Made by a program: the position numbers and the translations under genes
The notes under the pieces: model-generated
Told to the model about the DNA's origin: nothing
Database searches by the model: none
Seen by the model: the letters and a program-made list of their open reading frames with translations, nothing else
Source of the DNA: Flavobacteriales bacterium
GTDB lineage: Bacteria; Bacteroidota; Bacteroidia; Flavobacteriales_D; Sanyastnellaceae
DNA: 34,519 nt
Direction of reading: 5' to 3'
NCBI GenBank assembly: GCA_029238785.1
Contig: JAQWFN010000101.1
Coordinates: 1-34,519 of the forward strand
Shown here: positions 6,769-13,306 of the stretch, piece by piece
Position numbering within the stretch: the first letter of the stretch is position 1
Layout of the letters: each line of letters opens with the position of its first letter

Positions 6769-8235
6769 CTACCTAGGATTGTAGAACAAATCTTCGAGTT
6801 CATCGCCTGAAAATGTGTCGCGAGCACCGGATCTGTTTCTGCTACTTTCCGAACTGCTAACTTCGACATTTTTTGTGCGCATTACCACTGGCCAGTCGTT
6901 ATTTTGAACTTCACCAAGCATATCAGAGTGAAGAAGCACAAAATCTACCCCAACAGACTCTCTCGAATAGAAAAGAAAACGTTTGTTGTTGAACTGATTG
7001 ATCTTGTAATAATGCCAGATTTCATAAGGCAAGACGTTCACAGGTTGATAGCGTTGGACAATTGTATTTGGTGGTCCGTATTGAAGGTAAACTCTACCGC
7101 GATCCGTTTGGTAACCTTTCATAATACGCGTGCCATAAGCGCGGTTCACGAATTTCACCTGTTCCAGATAATCATTCCAAGCTTGTTCTGGATTGCGCTC
7201 ATCACGTTTACACCAGAAATAGTAGAAGTACTTCTGCAAGGTGGCTAAATCAGCAAGCTGCATTTGATTTTGCACGGTGCTTCTTTCAAGGTTAGTTGAA
7301 ATAGGATGACAACTATTCAAGTACTCCACGAGGCTGTCTCTATCGTTATACTTGACCACGAAAGTTTGGTCGATGTTAATAAGAGCGATGTTTTCTTCGT
7401 TGGCTACTTTAAGGAAGTTATTTCGAGTGAAACTGATTCGCTTACTCACCATGGGTTCGTTCATTCTGTTGCGAGCTTCTACAACCAAATCATATCTGCC
7501 TGTAGGAAGATTAGCGATGTCTAACATGTGCAACATGGGAATTACCGCATTCACCTTTGCACGTTCGAGTTTTTGGAATTCACCAACGGCAACATCTTGA
7601 CCTCTTTCTGCAATGTAGTACGTTAACAAAAACATGCTGTCTTGAAGTAGTGGTGATGTTCGGTAAAGCTCAGTGTAAAAGGCAAGAACGTTTTGATTGG
7701 AGGCGTAGTAGTCAGAAACATAAGGAATCATGTCGTAACCACTTTTGGTTAATTCGCTTGCTTCTTGTGCTTTTGAGAAGGCTTTGATCAGCATGATGTC
7801 GGAGAATTCCATGCGTGTATCTACAAATGCGAGCTCAAATTCTTGTTCCAGTTTCTGTTCCGTTATTTCAGGGCTAAAGAGGTCTTTTAAAGAAATTTCA
7901 ATTTGATACTTCCCTGGCTTAAGGGAGAATCTTTGAACATCCATGAAATCAACCAAAGTGGTATCACTAACTTCTGGCGACTCAATGATGATTTTTCTGA
8001 AGTCGATGATGTTGCCATTTTGAGAAATGATGATGGTGCTTTCTATTTGAGATGATAGTACACCCGTGTTCAAAGTGGTGTACGAAACCGAACTTCCAAC
8101 AAAAGATAATTGCGTCTCAACATAAGATTCACCACCTGGTAGATCAAATTTTTTCAAATCGAAGTAGGCTTCCATAGAAAAAACCGATCCCGATGCAAGG
8201 AGTGAGAAAAGGAGGAAGTTCAAGATTTTCAGCAT
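6769..8235 (-). CDS. GWxTD domain-containing secreted protein
   Basis: A 488-residue exported protein with signal peptide MLKILNFLLFSLLASGSVFS. The first half is beta-rich and resembles repeated immunoglobulin-like strands. The C-terminal half contains the GWxTD-domain segment RGRVYLQYGPPNTIVQRY and a YEIWHYY motif, which define this Bacteroidota/Acidobacteriota family of unknown function. The protein probably sits in the periplasm or at the cell surface. An in-frame ATG at 8259 would put eight extra residues before the signal peptide, so 8235 is chosen. It is the first gene of a minus-strand run with a glycosyltransferase and comEC. Confidence 0.85.
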   Translation of the reverse strand: MLKILNFLLFSLLASGSVFSMEAYFDLKKFDLPGGESYVETQLSFVGSSVSYTTLNTGVLSSQIESTIIISQNGNIIDFRKIIIESPEVSDTTLVDFMDVQRFSLKPGKYQIEISLKDLFSPEITEQKLEQEFELAFVDTRMEFSDIMLIKAFSKAQEASELTKSGYDMIPYVSDYYASNQNVLAFYTELYRTSPLLQDSMFLLTYYIAERGQDVAVGEFQKLERAKVNAVIPMLHMLDIANLPTGRYDLVVEARNRMNEPMVSKRISFTRNNFLKVANEENIALINIDQTFVVKYNDRDSLVEYLNSCHPISTNLERSTVQNQMQLADLATLQKYFYYFWCKRDERNPEQAWNDYLEQVKFVNRAYGTRIMKGYQTDRGRVYLQYGPPNTIVQRYQPVNVLPYEIWHYYKINQFNNKRFLFYSRESVGVDFVLLHSDMLGEVQNNDWPVVMRTKNVEVSSSESSRNRSGARDTFSGDELEDLFYNPR

Positions 8236-9293: not shown

Positions 9294-9971
9294 ATGAAAC
9301 CAAGCTTAACACTTCGTAATGCTTTATTAGGTGCAGCAGTACTGATCCTTGCAGCTTGTACCGTAAATCTGGAGTTTGAAATATTTTCCAGTGATCTTAT
9401 TCACATCGCTCAGCAGAAAAATGAAGTGATCATGGTTAATGCCACCGTAAAGATGGATTATAGTGAAGAAGAAGCGGAGTCGGTAAAGAAGTTTATGAAT
9501 GATAACTTCCGTGATGCGGGAAATTTCAAAGTAGTAGAAGAAGAATATTCTACTTTTCTTTTGGCCGAATACAAGTTGCCGATAGTTCATGCTGAAAACG
9601 AGGAATTTAAATCAGAACAAGATTTGATTACCGTAATCGTGAATGAAGCTGATACCGGTAAGTATTTGGTAGGGATTAAGTTTGATAAAGAACAGTACAA
9701 AGCCATGAACGTCTTTTCTCAGGAGAAGTTTTATTCAGACATCGATTTAAAGGAAAGTGAAATTCAGTTTGAGTTTAGAAGCGATAACGACGAAGAAATT
9801 CAAACATCTTGGCGAAGTGTTTATGTGAATAGTGAGGCTTATCCTATCAGAGGAAAGTTTCTTCTTCATAAGCGCGATAAGCTCATTGTTACCCTTTCAG
9901 ATATTTTTAAAGAGGCCATGAAGAGTGAGGAGGATGTGATTTATTTTGGTGAAATGACCATTGTTCAATAA
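9294..9971 (+). CDS. Putative lipoprotein of unknown function
   Basis: A 225-residue protein starting MKPSLTLRNALLGAAVLILAAC has a basic n-region, a hydrophobic core and a lipobox LAAC with Cys22, so it should be a lipid-anchored envelope protein. The mature part is acidic and mixed alpha/beta (NATVKMDYSEEEAESVKKF...), with no domain I recognise. The frame is open upstream to 9102, but that extension is the relic of the hydrolase pseudogene; ATG at 9294 gives a clean signal peptide and is the real start. The gene stands alone before the metal-uptake locus. Confidence 0.75.
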   Translation: MKPSLTLRNALLGAAVLILAACTVNLEFEIFSSDLIHIAQQKNEVIMVNATVKMDYSEEEAESVKKFMNDNFRDAGNFKVVEEEYSTFLLAEYKLPIVHAENEEFKSEQDLITVIVNEADTGKYLVGIKFDKEQYKAMNVFSQEKFYSDIDLKESEIQFEFRSDNDEEIQTSWRSVYVNSEAYPIRGKFLLHKRDKLIVTLSDIFKEAMKSEEDVIYFGEMTIVQ

Positions 9972-10021
9972 AGTTAAGTCAACATCAATCACTCAGTGCA
10001 GAATAAGATTTCATTTGGTTC

Positions 10022-10033
10022 AGGCAATTGCCT
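10022..10033. promoter_or_regulatory. Perfect 12-bp palindrome, candidate operator of the TonB locus
   Basis: AGGCAATTGCCT reads identically on both strands and contains the TTG (10028-10030) that serves as the -33 box of the promoter ahead of the small His/Cys protein and TonB receptor. A dimeric repressor bound here would block sigma factor access. A metalloregulator is an attractive guess given the genes, but the regulator is unknown. Confidence 0.5.
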
Positions 10034-10056
10034 TAAGTTAAATTCATCTACCTTTG
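10028..10056 (+). promoter_or_regulatory. Bacteroidota-type promoter of the metal-uptake locus
   Basis: TTG at 10028-10030 and TACCTTTG at 10049-10056 are separated by 18 bases, matching the -33/-7 consensus of the phylum. Transcription should begin near 10063, almost at the start of the reading frame of the small protein. Confidence 0.7.
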
Positions 10057-10099
10057 CAAAATTAAATTAAGGCTGTACATATCGTCCATTGTTGCGCTA

Positions 10100-10393
10100 T
10101 TGCTAGTGCTGTTCATCAGCACTCCAGCAATCTATTTGCACAGTCATGAGGAGCATTTCGAAACACAAAGTCAGGGAGAACCTATTGATTATCTGGCGTT
10201 TACTTCAACTCATCACGACGATTCGTGTGAACTTTGTGATCTTGATTTATTAAGTCTTTTTGACGATGCCCAGCAGTTTGTTCTTCTCGATGCTCAAGCG
10301 TGGAGTGATAGACTTCCTCTTGCTTGTGTTGAGCGCTGTTTTATAGCAATCATTAGTACCTCTAGCCCTCGAGGGCCTCCTGCATGTTTGTGA
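10100..10393 (+). CDS. Small secreted His/Cys-rich protein upstream of TonB receptor
   Basis: A protein of about 97 residues from TTG 10100, with a hydrophobic N-terminus, a HSHEEH motif, then HHDDSCELCDLD (His pair plus CxxC) and a C-terminal SPRGPP. Small proteins of this shape, resembling DUF2946 in layout, sit before metal-related TonB receptors in Bacteroidota; metal binding in the periplasm is plausible but unproven. There is no ATG in the frame. The frame is open back to 10037 and the stretch just upstream (KIKLRLYISSIVALL) would supply the basic n-region of a signal peptide, so the true start is probably a rare non-ATG codon between 10061 and 10100. The TonB receptor starts 35 bases downstream. 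Confidence 0.65.
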   Translation: MLVLFISTPAIYLHSHEEHFETQSQGEPIDYLAFTSTHHDDSCELCDLDLLSLFDDAQQFVLLDAQAWSDRLPLACVERCFIAIISTSSPRGPPACL

Positions 10394-10428: not shown

Positions 10429-12720
10429 ATGAGGCAATATGCTTGTTTGATCATTTTATTGGTCATCTCTGCTAGCACCCTTGCTCAAGATTTAGATTCC
10501 TGCTTCATCTCCATTCATGGTAAAGTCTTAGATGCACGAGAAGGTGTGCCTCTGGAGTTTGCGCATGTAAGTGTACATGTGGGCAATGAAACTCGCAATA
10601 CTTATAGCAATGAAAATGGAGCGTATGCAGTAACTATACCTTGTGGTGATAGCTTATTTCTTCGGGTATCTTATTTAGGATACGTGAGTGATGAAGGTCG
10701 TTTTTCAGGAAAGAAAGACCTAGATCTCACGCATCGTTTGGCCTATTCCAATCAGCTTTTTGCACCGGTGCTTATCAAGGCGGGGCGAAGAACGACTCCT
10801 TTTGTTGATGAAGTGGAGCGGATTGTGTTGAATTCAATCGACCAAGCATCAAGTGTTGATTTTAGTGCAAGCAGCGCTATTCTACCAAGAGTAAGGAGAA
10901 AATCTTCGGGGTCGAATACAGGGAAACCGCTGATTCGAGGCTTTTATGGTGCTCGAGTTGCTTTACTGGTGGAAGGTCTTGGGCTCTCAAATCAGCAATG
11001 GGGTGAAGAACATGCACCAGAGCTGTTTCCAGCATTCTACAAAGAGATGCAATTGCTCGCTGATGCAGAACTTCTCCGGTATAGCTACGAAGGAATTGGA
11101 GGCGCCATTAACATGGAAAAGCGCATTCATTCAGAAGATAGCTTGATTCATTACGAAGCCTACTTTTCTCTAAGAGATCAAGACCGTAGGGGAGCAATGG
11201 GCTTCAACTTCTTTCAAAATAGCCCGAAATACAACTTGGCGTGGAGAGCTCAAGTTTTTATGAATAAAGGAGGTACACTTAAGACGCCAGATGGCTTTCT
11301 CAGTAACACGGGGAGTGAAAACAGGCATTGGTCTTACGATCTTAAGTTTTCGCCTAAGAACCATCAAATCGACCTGCACTTCACGCAATTCAAAACTCGC
11401 CTTGGTATTTTTCGAGGAGCCCATCTGGGTAATCTTTCCGATCTCGAGCGAGCCATTGAAAGCGATGAATTGTTAGTTAGAAGCGATTTCAGTTACAGTA
11501 TTGGACTACCAAGACAAGAGGTTCTTCATGATTTTTTACGTTTAAATTACGGCACTAAGGCCTTGTTTCAAGGACAATTGTCATTTCAACTGGCCAGGCA
11601 GTTCAATCGCCGACAAGAGTTCGATTTAATTCGAGCTCGAGATGAAGACCTAGCAGCAATGGAGTTGAATAAAACCACCTGGAACACGTCACTCACTTGG
11701 GAAAAAAGTGTTTTTGAAAAGGCAAAGTTACATCTGGGCCTTCAAGGAGCGCACATCAAGAATACCAATGGGGCCATCATCTTCATCCCAAATTATTTAG
11801 AACGCCACTTGGGTTCCTTCTTGTCTTATGAGCACGAGCTAAATTCACTTTTTACCTTGAGCAGCACATTGAGGTATGACGCGATTCACCGAGAAGTCTT
11901 TCAGTTTCAGGATGGAGAGTTGAATCAATCGGAAAGGAACTTTGATCATTGGAGTGCTGCACTTGAGCTAGGCATCAGTCCATCTTCAAGCTTGAGCTTC
12001 CAATTGCAGTTATCGAGCATGTGGCGACCGCCTGCAATGAATGAATTGTTTGCCACTGGTTTGCATCATGGGGCTGCTGCCTTAGAGTTCGGGAATGAGG
12101 AATTGGAGCAAGAGGAGAGTTATAAATTGAATTTAAGCACAAGCTGGAACAATGAAAATTTGAAGATTTCAGCTGCGTTGTTTTATAACAGAATTGAGAA
12201 TTTCATCTATCTCGATCCACGTGCCGAACTGGAGTTGACGATTCGTGGCGCTTTTCCGGCCTTTGATCAAAAGCAAGCTCTTGCACATTTTTACGGTGCT
12301 GAAGTTTGGGGTGAATATGCAATAGGCAAATGGAAGTTGACGGAAAGTATTTCTGTGGTTGAAGCTAGAAAGAACGGAAATGAGGCTTTACCTCAAATTC
12401 CGCCATTTCAATTGAGCCAAAGACTACATTATTCATGGTCAACAAAACAAAAGCCTCTTGGTTTTCAGCTAGAACATCAATACACAGCAGCCCAAAATTT
12501 TTTCGACCCTGCTCTTGAAGTAGCTCTGCCGCCATCAGCGTTTCATTTATTCAATGCTGCAATTGATTATGAAATCAACAGCGCGAAGATGCTTTGGAGT
12601 TTTCAGTTAGGTGTACAGAACATCTTCAATCTTCGCTACTTCGATTACTTAAACAGACAGCGCTTTTTTGCTCCTGAATTGGGGCGACAAGTATTTATAT
12701 CACTAAAAGTCAATTATTAA
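10429..12720 (+). CDS. TonB-dependent outer-membrane receptor, probable metal (zinc-type) transporter
   Basis: A 763-residue outer-membrane protein. The order is signal peptide (1-19), a carboxypeptidase-regulatory-like domain (about 27-100, ISIHGKVLDAREGVPLEFAHVSV through FLRVSYLGY), a plug (about 130-230, with PLIRGFYGARVALLVEGL and EGIGGAINM), and a 22-strand-type beta barrel ending in an aromatic residue (LKVNY). In the barrel, RPPAMNELFATGLHHGAAALEFGN closely resembles the corresponding signature of ZnuD-like zinc receptors (RAPxxxELYAxGxHxAxxxFExGN). That, with the His/Cys protein upstream, suggests uptake of zinc or another transition metal. It is cotranscribed with the gene before and probably with the lipoprotein after it. 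Confidence 0.9.
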   Translation: MRQYACLIILLVISASTLAQDLDSCFISIHGKVLDAREGVPLEFAHVSVHVGNETRNTYSNENGAYAVTIPCGDSLFLRVSYLGYVSDEGRFSGKKDLDLTHRLAYSNQLFAPVLIKAGRRTTPFVDEVERIVLNSIDQASSVDFSASSAILPRVRRKSSGSNTGKPLIRGFYGARVALLVEGLGLSNQQWGEEHAPELFPAFYKEMQLLADAELLRYSYEGIGGAINMEKRIHSEDSLIHYEAYFSLRDQDRRGAMGFNFFQNSPKYNLAWRAQVFMNKGGTLKTPDGFLSNTGSENRHWSYDLKFSPKNHQIDLHFTQFKTRLGIFRGAHLGNLSDLERAIESDELLVRSDFSYSIGLPRQEVLHDFLRLNYGTKALFQGQLSFQLARQFNRRQEFDLIRARDEDLAAMELNKTTWNTSLTWEKSVFEKAKLHLGLQGAHIKNTNGAIIFIPNYLERHLGSFLSYEHELNSLFTLSSTLRYDAIHREVFQFQDGELNQSERNFDHWSAALELGISPSSSLSFQLQLSSMWRPPAMNELFATGLHHGAAALEFGNEELEQEESYKLNLSTSWNNENLKISAALFYNRIENFIYLDPRAELELTIRGAFPAFDQKQALAHFYGAEVWGEYAIGKWKLTESISVVEARKNGNEALPQIPPFQLSQRLHYSWSTKQKPLGFQLEHQYTAAQNFFDPALEVALPPSAFHLFNAAIDYEINSAKMLWSFQLGVQNIFNLRYFDYLNRQRFFAPELGRQVFISLKVNY

Positions 12721-12745: not shown

Positions 12746-13306
12746 ATGAAAACAACAAAGTTTTATTTACTCGCTCCTGTATTTTTATTACTTCTTATAG
12801 GATGTGCCAAAGATGAAGAAGAGTTAGCTACTCCTCCTGTTAATAATGAAGAGGAGTTGATTACCACCTTTATTCTAAACTTAGAAAATAGCACCGATAG
12901 CACCGATACACATCAAGCTAGCTTTCGCGATGTTGACGGTCCTGGAGGTGAGGACCCCGTTTTAGAGAGCAATTTGGTGCTTCAAAGAAACGCTACTTAC
13001 AATGGAGCAATAAGCGTTTTGGACGAATCAGGTGATGAAATAGAAGACATCACCATTGAAGTAGAAGAGGAAGGCGCAGAGCATTTATTCTGCTTCGACT
13101 TTGATGGAATAACAGGTGTAAGTGTTGCTTATGCAGATAGCGATGGCATTTATGGTATTGGAATTTTATCTTCTTGGATTGGTGAAGAGCTTGGACAGGG
13201 AACCGTGAGCATCACCTTAAAACATCAACCTGGAGTAAAGGATGGAACTTGTGAACCTGGTGAAACCGATATTGAAGTTAGTTTTCCAATAGAAATTATT
13301 GAATGA
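12746..13306 (+). CDS. Acidic lipoprotein linked to the TonB receptor
   Basis: This 186-residue protein has a lipoprotein signal ending LLLIGC (Cys20), followed by a very acidic spacer (AKDEEELATPP). The mature domain is beta-rich, with repeated blocks such as VLQRNATYNGAISVLDESGDEIEDITIEVEEEGAEHLF and a closing GETDIEVSFPI. Lipoproteins of this look follow TonB receptors in many Bacteroidota metal loci. Acting as a surface or periplasmic accessory to the receptor is an inference from position. It begins 25 bases after the receptor stop. Confidence 0.8.
   Translation: MKTTKFYLLAPVFLLLLIGCAKDEEELATPPVNNEEELITTFILNLENSTDSTDTHQASFRDVDGPGGEDPVLESNLVLQRNATYNGAISVLDESGDEIEDITIEVEEEGAEHLFCFDFDGITGVSVAYADSDGIYGIGILSSWIGEELGQGTVSITLKHQPGVKDGTCEPGETDIEVSFPIEIIE

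Follow-up and report, generated by a model that had tools for sequence, protein, structure and literature searches.

Genes and Promoter Features at the Locus

The window, meaning the whole stretch of 34,519 nucleotides that was analysed, carries a small His/Cys open reading frame followed by a TonB receptor and then by a lipoprotein-like open reading frame, all on the same strand. The initial annotation had named this trio as a small His/Cys protein, a ZnuD-like TonB receptor and a lipoprotein, and it holds up, with ZnuD emerging as the best solved relative of the receptor. The features of the region are as follows.

9294..9971, + strand: DUF7424 gene, upstream; it bounds the promoter region
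10022..10033, no strand: AGGCAATTGCCT, a perfect 12-bp palindrome, probably incidental
10028..10030, + strand: TTG at the -33 position, 18 nt upstream of the -7 box; absent in the genus-mate
10030..10073: imperfect inverted repeat with arms 10030-10044 and 10059-10073, 13 of 15 pairs, and a 14-nt spacer holding the -7 box
10049..10056, + strand: -7 box TACCTTTG, of the sigma-ABfr type TAnnTTTG; the conserved element of the promoter
10061..10063, + strand: ATT (ATC in the genus-mate), 4 nt downstream of the box, predicted to be both the transcription start and the first codon
10061..10393, + strand: small His/Cys protein gene with a signal-like N-terminus, a His cluster, CELC and a C-terminal SPRGPP; predicted leaderless
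10429..12720, + strand: TonB-dependent receptor, ZnuD-like, with a TonB barrel and N-terminal carboxypeptidase-like domains
12746..13306, + strand: lipoprotein-like ORF with an LLIGC lipobox (by eye) and no Pfam match at E 0.001

A single congeneric genome is the nearest relative found (locus L033, CALKGK010000005.1; the genus-mate in what follows), whose receptor is 45% identical to that of the window. Among 114 genomes of the family no relative nearer than this was detected. In the genus-mate, as in the window, an ORF like the lipoprotein-like ORF follows the receptor (7297-7875).

The Small His/Cys Protein and Its Family

Members of the family to which the head gene belongs have a signal-like N-terminus, a His cluster, a CxxC motif and a C-terminal R[GA]PP. 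In an alignment of fifteen members, one cysteine and both prolines are invariant. When 399 genomes of the order were searched with a profile made from these fifteen, 28 gave a match (E 0.001), and 18 of the 28 were new (L083-L100). All of the new members except L091 have a receptor relative in their locus (17 of 18; the match in L099 is weak), and it comes after the small gene in 16, the exception being L085, where the receptor lies upstream of the small gene. The small protein is best explained as secreted or membrane-bound, as part of the overall reading set out below.

The set used for counting has 33 genes, namely those of the window and the genus-mate, 13 others and the 18 new ones. Small RxPP genes were obtained from 8 of 20 regions examined; in the remaining 12 no such gene was seen, in some cases owing to a contig end. 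Among 11 loci on public contigs, L033, L036, L037, L038, L040 and L041 were used, L034, L035, L039 and L043 yielded no member, and L042 stands outside the counts. Two matches to the RxPP pattern, in L045 (5567-5806) and L047 (4720-4944), were discarded as spurious on inspection by eye.

For the window's small protein, Pfam gives nothing up to E 5, and NCBIfam gives one match that is far below the cut-off. Likeness to DUF2946 (PF11162) consists of a weak full-length match to the genus-mate's protein only, with E 0.035 over its length and 15.3 bits, below the cut-off of 23.7; no DUF2946 match was seen in the window's protein or in the other seven scanned. Among the open-access papers listed, as judged from titles and the openings of abstracts, neither the small His/Cys family nor a leaderless start for it is described.

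The Receptor

When the receptor alone was compared with solved proteins, ZnuD was the only match at E 1e-5 or better (E 3.1e-7, with no stretch passing singly). The receptor search had matched 47 of 100 genomes, and 16 full-length receptors were aligned. A profile of these 16 has ZnuD as its best PDB match (4rdr, E 4.4e-34), followed by a TonB-linked receptor and the copper porin OprC.

The zinc ligands of ZnuD are Asp-99, His-100, His-499 and Glu-340 (PMC4557270). With a numbering offset of 14, itself inferred from the alignment, Asp-99 and His-100 correspond to E194 and H195 of the window's receptor and His-499 corresponds to H546. The three columns are occupied by [DE], H and H in 16 of 16 receptors, and the fourth ligand, Glu-340, falls outside the aligned stretches. 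The NCBIfam ZnuD model gives 60.8 bits against a cut-off of 950, so that the receptor is to be called ZnuD-like and is not a ZnuD by that test. The NCBIfam heme-receptor model scores higher, at 121.2 bits, also below its cut-off (316.85). Zinc is the likely substrate, and the combined matches support a probable zinc-uptake operon with a ZnuD-like receptor and a His/Cys head gene.

The Palindrome Upstream of the -7 Box

Because of its symmetry and position, the palindrome had been read as the operator of a repressor of this operon. The palindrome itself is confirmed: AGGCAATTGCCT is perfect over its 12 bp. Three properties would mark such an operator, namely a frequency above chance, recurrence before the genes of a regulon and conservation at orthologues, and none of the three was found.

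Frequency can be judged at two scales. In the window as a whole, 10 perfect palindromes of at least 12 bp occur, with 10.05 expected from base composition. For the promoter region, first-order Markov sequences were generated to match the 129 nt from 9972 to 10100 in composition, and 4.6% of them carry a perfect palindrome of at least 12 bp.

The 3.11-Mb genome (132 contigs) has exact matches to AGGCAATTGCCT in two places, and the second is between rpsO-like and pnp-like genes. This second copy is part of a hairpin-like sequence (by eye) on the minus strand of L002 (1480-1535), which is likely to be a terminator or pnp leader. It was rejected as a shared operator, given the longer hairpin-like sequence in which it sits. 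The exact-match search found no copy before any other metal gene in the genome. With up to 2 mismatches allowed, matches in the window start at 1462, 1716, 2988 and 10022, and none is upstream of the ZIP gene (1243-1989), one of the metal genes before which the palindrome was to be sought. The ATG of this ZIP zinc transporter gene overlaps the 3' end of a methyltransferase-like ORF (488-1246), so it is without a promoter region of its own directly upstream.

Conservation upstream of orthologous loci, whose absence the initial annotation had set as the refutation of its reading, is lacking as well, within the limit set by the distance of the nearest relative. For 29 small-gene-family promoters (the window included; the 33 family genes minus L037, L085, L090 and L091, in which no box was found), the 100 nt before the -7 box were searched for AGGCAATTGCCT at up to 2 mismatches. 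It was present in 1 of 29, the window itself, and absent from the 28 others. The genus-mate's promoter has neither AGGCAATTGCCT (at up to 2 mismatches) nor the -33 TTG. Over the 90 nt upstream of the box, the alignment of window and genus-mate is no better than that of shuffles (0.11 of shuffles as good). Perfect 6+6 inverted repeats were counted in the 45 nt upstream of each box; 7 of 29 promoters have one, against 4.5 expected from shuffles. The genus-mate does have another inverted repeat, GCTTCA-N5-TGAAGC, in the same stretch. Between its DUF7424-like gene and the operon there are also sensor-kinase-like and response-regulator-like ORFs (L033:3058-4499) that are absent there in the window; with these two-component-like ORFs in between, the DNA before the genus-mate's promoter probably differs in origin from that of the window.

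In this light, AGGCAATTGCCT could still be the operator of a species-specific or fast-evolving repressor that would act over the -33 region and block the promoter at plentiful metal, since non-conservation across species whose receptors are 45% identical would leave room for an operator of that kind. Perfect symmetry, the position over the -33 TTG, the 4.6% figure and the different repeat of the genus-mate all point that way. Set against them are the chance frequency in the window, the single other genomic site between rpsO-like and pnp-like genes, the absence from the 28 other promoters, the count of 6+6 repeats (7 of 29 against 4.5 expected), and the fact that no regulator was linked to AGGCAATTGCCT in this analysis. 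On balance an operator of this kind is distinctly unlikely, and the palindrome, though real, is very probably incidental. The operator reading would have steered experiments to the wrong bases.

Different repeats are seen elsewhere in the family. Two loci of one genus (L094 and L098) share ATTGCAACA[CG]ATTTGCAT, an inverted repeat of the form TGCAA-N5-TTGCA, about 19-36 nt before the -7 box. It is a candidate operator of that genus and differs from the window's palindrome.

Candidate Metal Regulators Elsewhere in the Genome

In the window's own genome a single protein reaches the Pfam cut-off for the Fur family, and its gene is next to a RelA/SpoT-like gene; there is likewise a single DtxR-family protein, whose gene has a ZIP-like gene as its neighbour (neighbours identified by eye in both cases). 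The DtxR-ZIP-like pair is divergent from a TonB-receptor-like gene (L065:1201-1320, contig C96; neighbours again by eye), and between them lies a 14-bp palindrome, TTAGACTAGTCTAA. TTAGACTAGTCTAA is a good candidate for a true metal operator here. When it was sought before the window's operon with up to 3 mismatches allowed, no match was found there (3 matches at 3 mismatches, none near 10022). A single site with 2 mismatches to TTAGACTAGTCTAA elsewhere was dismissed as meaningless, the backward control pattern giving 8 matches per strand against 2.

The -7 Box and Its Surroundings

A -33 TTG in a consensus promoter had also been proposed, and this stands in part. There is a TTG 18 nt before a box of the sigma-ABfr type; the -33 element as such is weakly supported and is absent in the genus-mate. 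Across the family, TTG at a spacer of 16-22 before the box occurs in 10 of 29 promoters as compared with 15.4% of random positions, a mild excess. For Flavobacterium johnsoniae, PMC6847099 describes the -33 motif as 'much less evident'.

The -7 box is the better anchor. The window's TACCTTTG aligns with TAGCTTTG in the genus-mate. The -7 boxes of F. johnsoniae virtually never carry G at position three or four, and many transcripts with that box begin 4 or 5 nt after it (PMC6847099). The window's box fits the first of these rules; TAGCTTTG goes against it with G at the third position, as do the boxes of L046 and L087.

The inverted repeat at 10030-10073 offers a second kind of operator. In that case the bound element would be the repeat flanking the -7 box, and the 12-bp palindrome would merely overlap its edge. 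In simulation, 0.275% of Markov sequences with matching composition contain a repeat with 15-nt arms paired at 13 of 15 positions, a post hoc figure since the repeat was noticed after the fact, and the window has 4 such repeat clusters where 40 simulated windows have a mean of 0.6. The other three clusters, lying between ORFs, may be terminators. The repeat at the promoter is A+T-rich, its right arm is in predicted coding sequence, and an inverted repeat around the box is found in 1 of 29 promoters, that of the window only. It is very unlikely to be the operator.

A Predicted Leaderless Start against the Box

What does recur in the family is the distance from the box to the start of the small gene. 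A TAnnTTTG box lies 4-5 nt before an ATG, GTG or TTG in 15 of 33 family genes and in 9 of 280 control ORFs. At 3-10 nt before a canonical start it is seen in 22 of 33 family genes against 16 of 280 controls (Fisher 7e-16), and if the count is confined to genes that have a box within 39 nt, it is 3-10 nt before the start in 22 of 25 family genes against 16 of 59 controls (4e-7), p values that are overstated by kinship among the family genes. These genes were picked by protein features and not by the box. Members with the 3-10 nt spacing are present in seven families of the order.

The remaining genes of the 33 are of several kinds. The window, the genus-mate and L055 have no canonical start near the box, L036, L089 and L095 have wider spacers (16, 11 and 16 nt), and four, as noted above, have no box. 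L097 was missed by the 150-nt limit, yet its ATG is 10 nt after a box. One extra member, L042 (a Prevotellaceae record), is outside the 33, and counting it would give 22 of 34. Its nearest box is 71 nt from its ATG, and with no box within 70 nt it shows that the short distance from box to start is not universal.

Of the F. johnsoniae leaders examined, 87% exceed 10 nt (PMC6847099), 5.5% of Flavobacterium psychrophilum mRNAs are leaderless (PMC9723704), and about 3.7% of 5' UTRs in Bacteroides thetaiotaomicron are under 10 nt (PMC7366714); in an earlier survey that used Pribnow-like signals, 1 of 37 Bacteroidetes/Chlorobi genomes had leaderless genes (PMC3160421). In the window, 4 nt separate TACCTTTG from the ATT, within the 4-5 nt reported in the F. 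johnsoniae work. The head gene is therefore predicted to be leaderless, as its box stands against the start and transcripts are expected to begin 4-5 nt downstream of that box. The feature conserved in much of the family within the order is thus quite probably a leaderless start against the -7 box.

The First Codon

The window and its genus-mate differ from most members in having no canonical start at this position. In frame from 10037 to 10099 the window has no ATG, GTG or TTG, and the genus-mate has none before codon 14. The upstream frame is closed by a TAA at 10034-10036 in the window and by the box's own TAG, 12 nt before the ATC, in the genus-mate. The codon in the predicted first position is ATT in one and ATC in the other, so the case for a non-AUG start rests on two sequences.

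From that codon onward the two genes align without gaps over the 33 codons compared. Differences at codon positions 1, 2 and 3 number 8, 9 and 18 over codons 1-26, and 6, 5 and 10 over codons 1-13. Compared as plain DNA, the box plus 102 nt is no better than 0.11 of shuffles, in what is a weak test. The N-termini of relatives are of like length to the one that would begin at ATT or ATC.

The first in-frame TTG, at 10100, is codon 14 and is aligned with a TTG in the genus-mate; a CTG at 10073 is a further possible start, though one that the window does not share with the genus-mate. The small gene could then be led, with transcription beginning near 10061 and translation at TTG 10100 (or CTG 10073) after a leader of 12-39 nt. 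Besides the aligned TTG, the long leaders that prevail in F. johnsoniae and the led appearance of L042, a relative outside the set, would agree with this. Most family members examined are predicted to have near-zero leaders, however, and codons 1-13, which would be untranslated leader, are gap-free between window and genus-mate. Initiation at TTG 10100 would also strip off the N-region with its positive charge and half the hydrophobic segment kept in relatives. Such a leader is doubtful. Since relatives keep a signal-like segment that translation from TTG 10100 would truncate, AUU or AUC is the better reading of the start codon in this genus, and we hold it with moderate confidence. Gene finders would take TTG 10100 and, if AUU or AUC is the true start, would misplace it and lose the signal-like segment.

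One other member of the small-gene family lacks an in-frame ATG, GTG or TTG near the box (L055:2133-2160). There ACA is found 4 nt and ATC 7 nt after the box.

Interpretation

The observations can be drawn together as follows. A promoter of the sigma-ABfr type would place its -7 box (10049-10056) directly against the first codon of the small His/Cys gene. RNA polymerase would start at about 10061, and the mRNA would then begin at the first codon, leaderless; in this genus that codon would be AUU or AUC and not AUG. The small gene would head a ZnuD-like receptor operon, and the palindrome upstream would be incidental. This explanation as a whole is given a probability of roughly two in three, the third-position G of TAGCTTTG and the led appearance of L042 telling slightly against it; the transcription start, the AUU or AUC start, the zinc substrate and any regulation are parts of it that we infer from the DNA and its relatives.

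If it is true, a family of metal-uptake operons in Bacteroidota is headed by a leaderless gene, which in one genus starts with an AUU or AUC codon. The locus would then be a natural test case for the choice of start by Bacteroidota ribosomes.

A more speculative extension is that the head-gene family is kept leaderless by selection, often with weak starts (GTG, TTG, AUU or AUC), and that its translation needs ribosomes in a special state, such as a shortage of zinc or initiation factors. This seems unlikely as it stands. Were it true, zinc uptake would have its metal-sensing or gain-setting step in the leaderless start and not in a DNA operator.

Comparison with Known Systems

Fur- and DtxR-type operators are palindromes near metal-transport promoters, and AGGCAATTGCCT shares that much with them. 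In contrast to TTAGACTAGTCTAA, which lies at the DtxR gene, AGGCAATTGCCT has no second copy at a metal gene.

ZnuD, the neisserial zinc TonB-dependent receptor, is the best solved match to the receptor profile, and three of its four zinc ligands are kept. The window's receptor differs in adding an N-terminal carboxypeptidase-like domain.

A bacterial gene that starts with AUU is infC, a translation-factor gene under its own feedback. The likeness to the small His/Cys gene is in the near-cognate AUU as presumed start; the feedback link belongs to infC, and none is known for the small gene. In E. coli, leaderless mRNA is said to be recognised via a 5'-terminal AUG. Bacteroidota have mRNAs without Shine-Dalgarno sequences.

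A further parallel is with the leaderless mRNAs of Bacteroidota, which likewise have the first codon at the expected transcription start and TAnnTTTG 4-5 nt before it. In contrast to the leaderless mRNAs of F. psychrophilum and B. thetaiotaomicron, the layout described here is repeated within a single gene family that spans several families of the order, and the first codon in the window's genus would be AUU or AUC.
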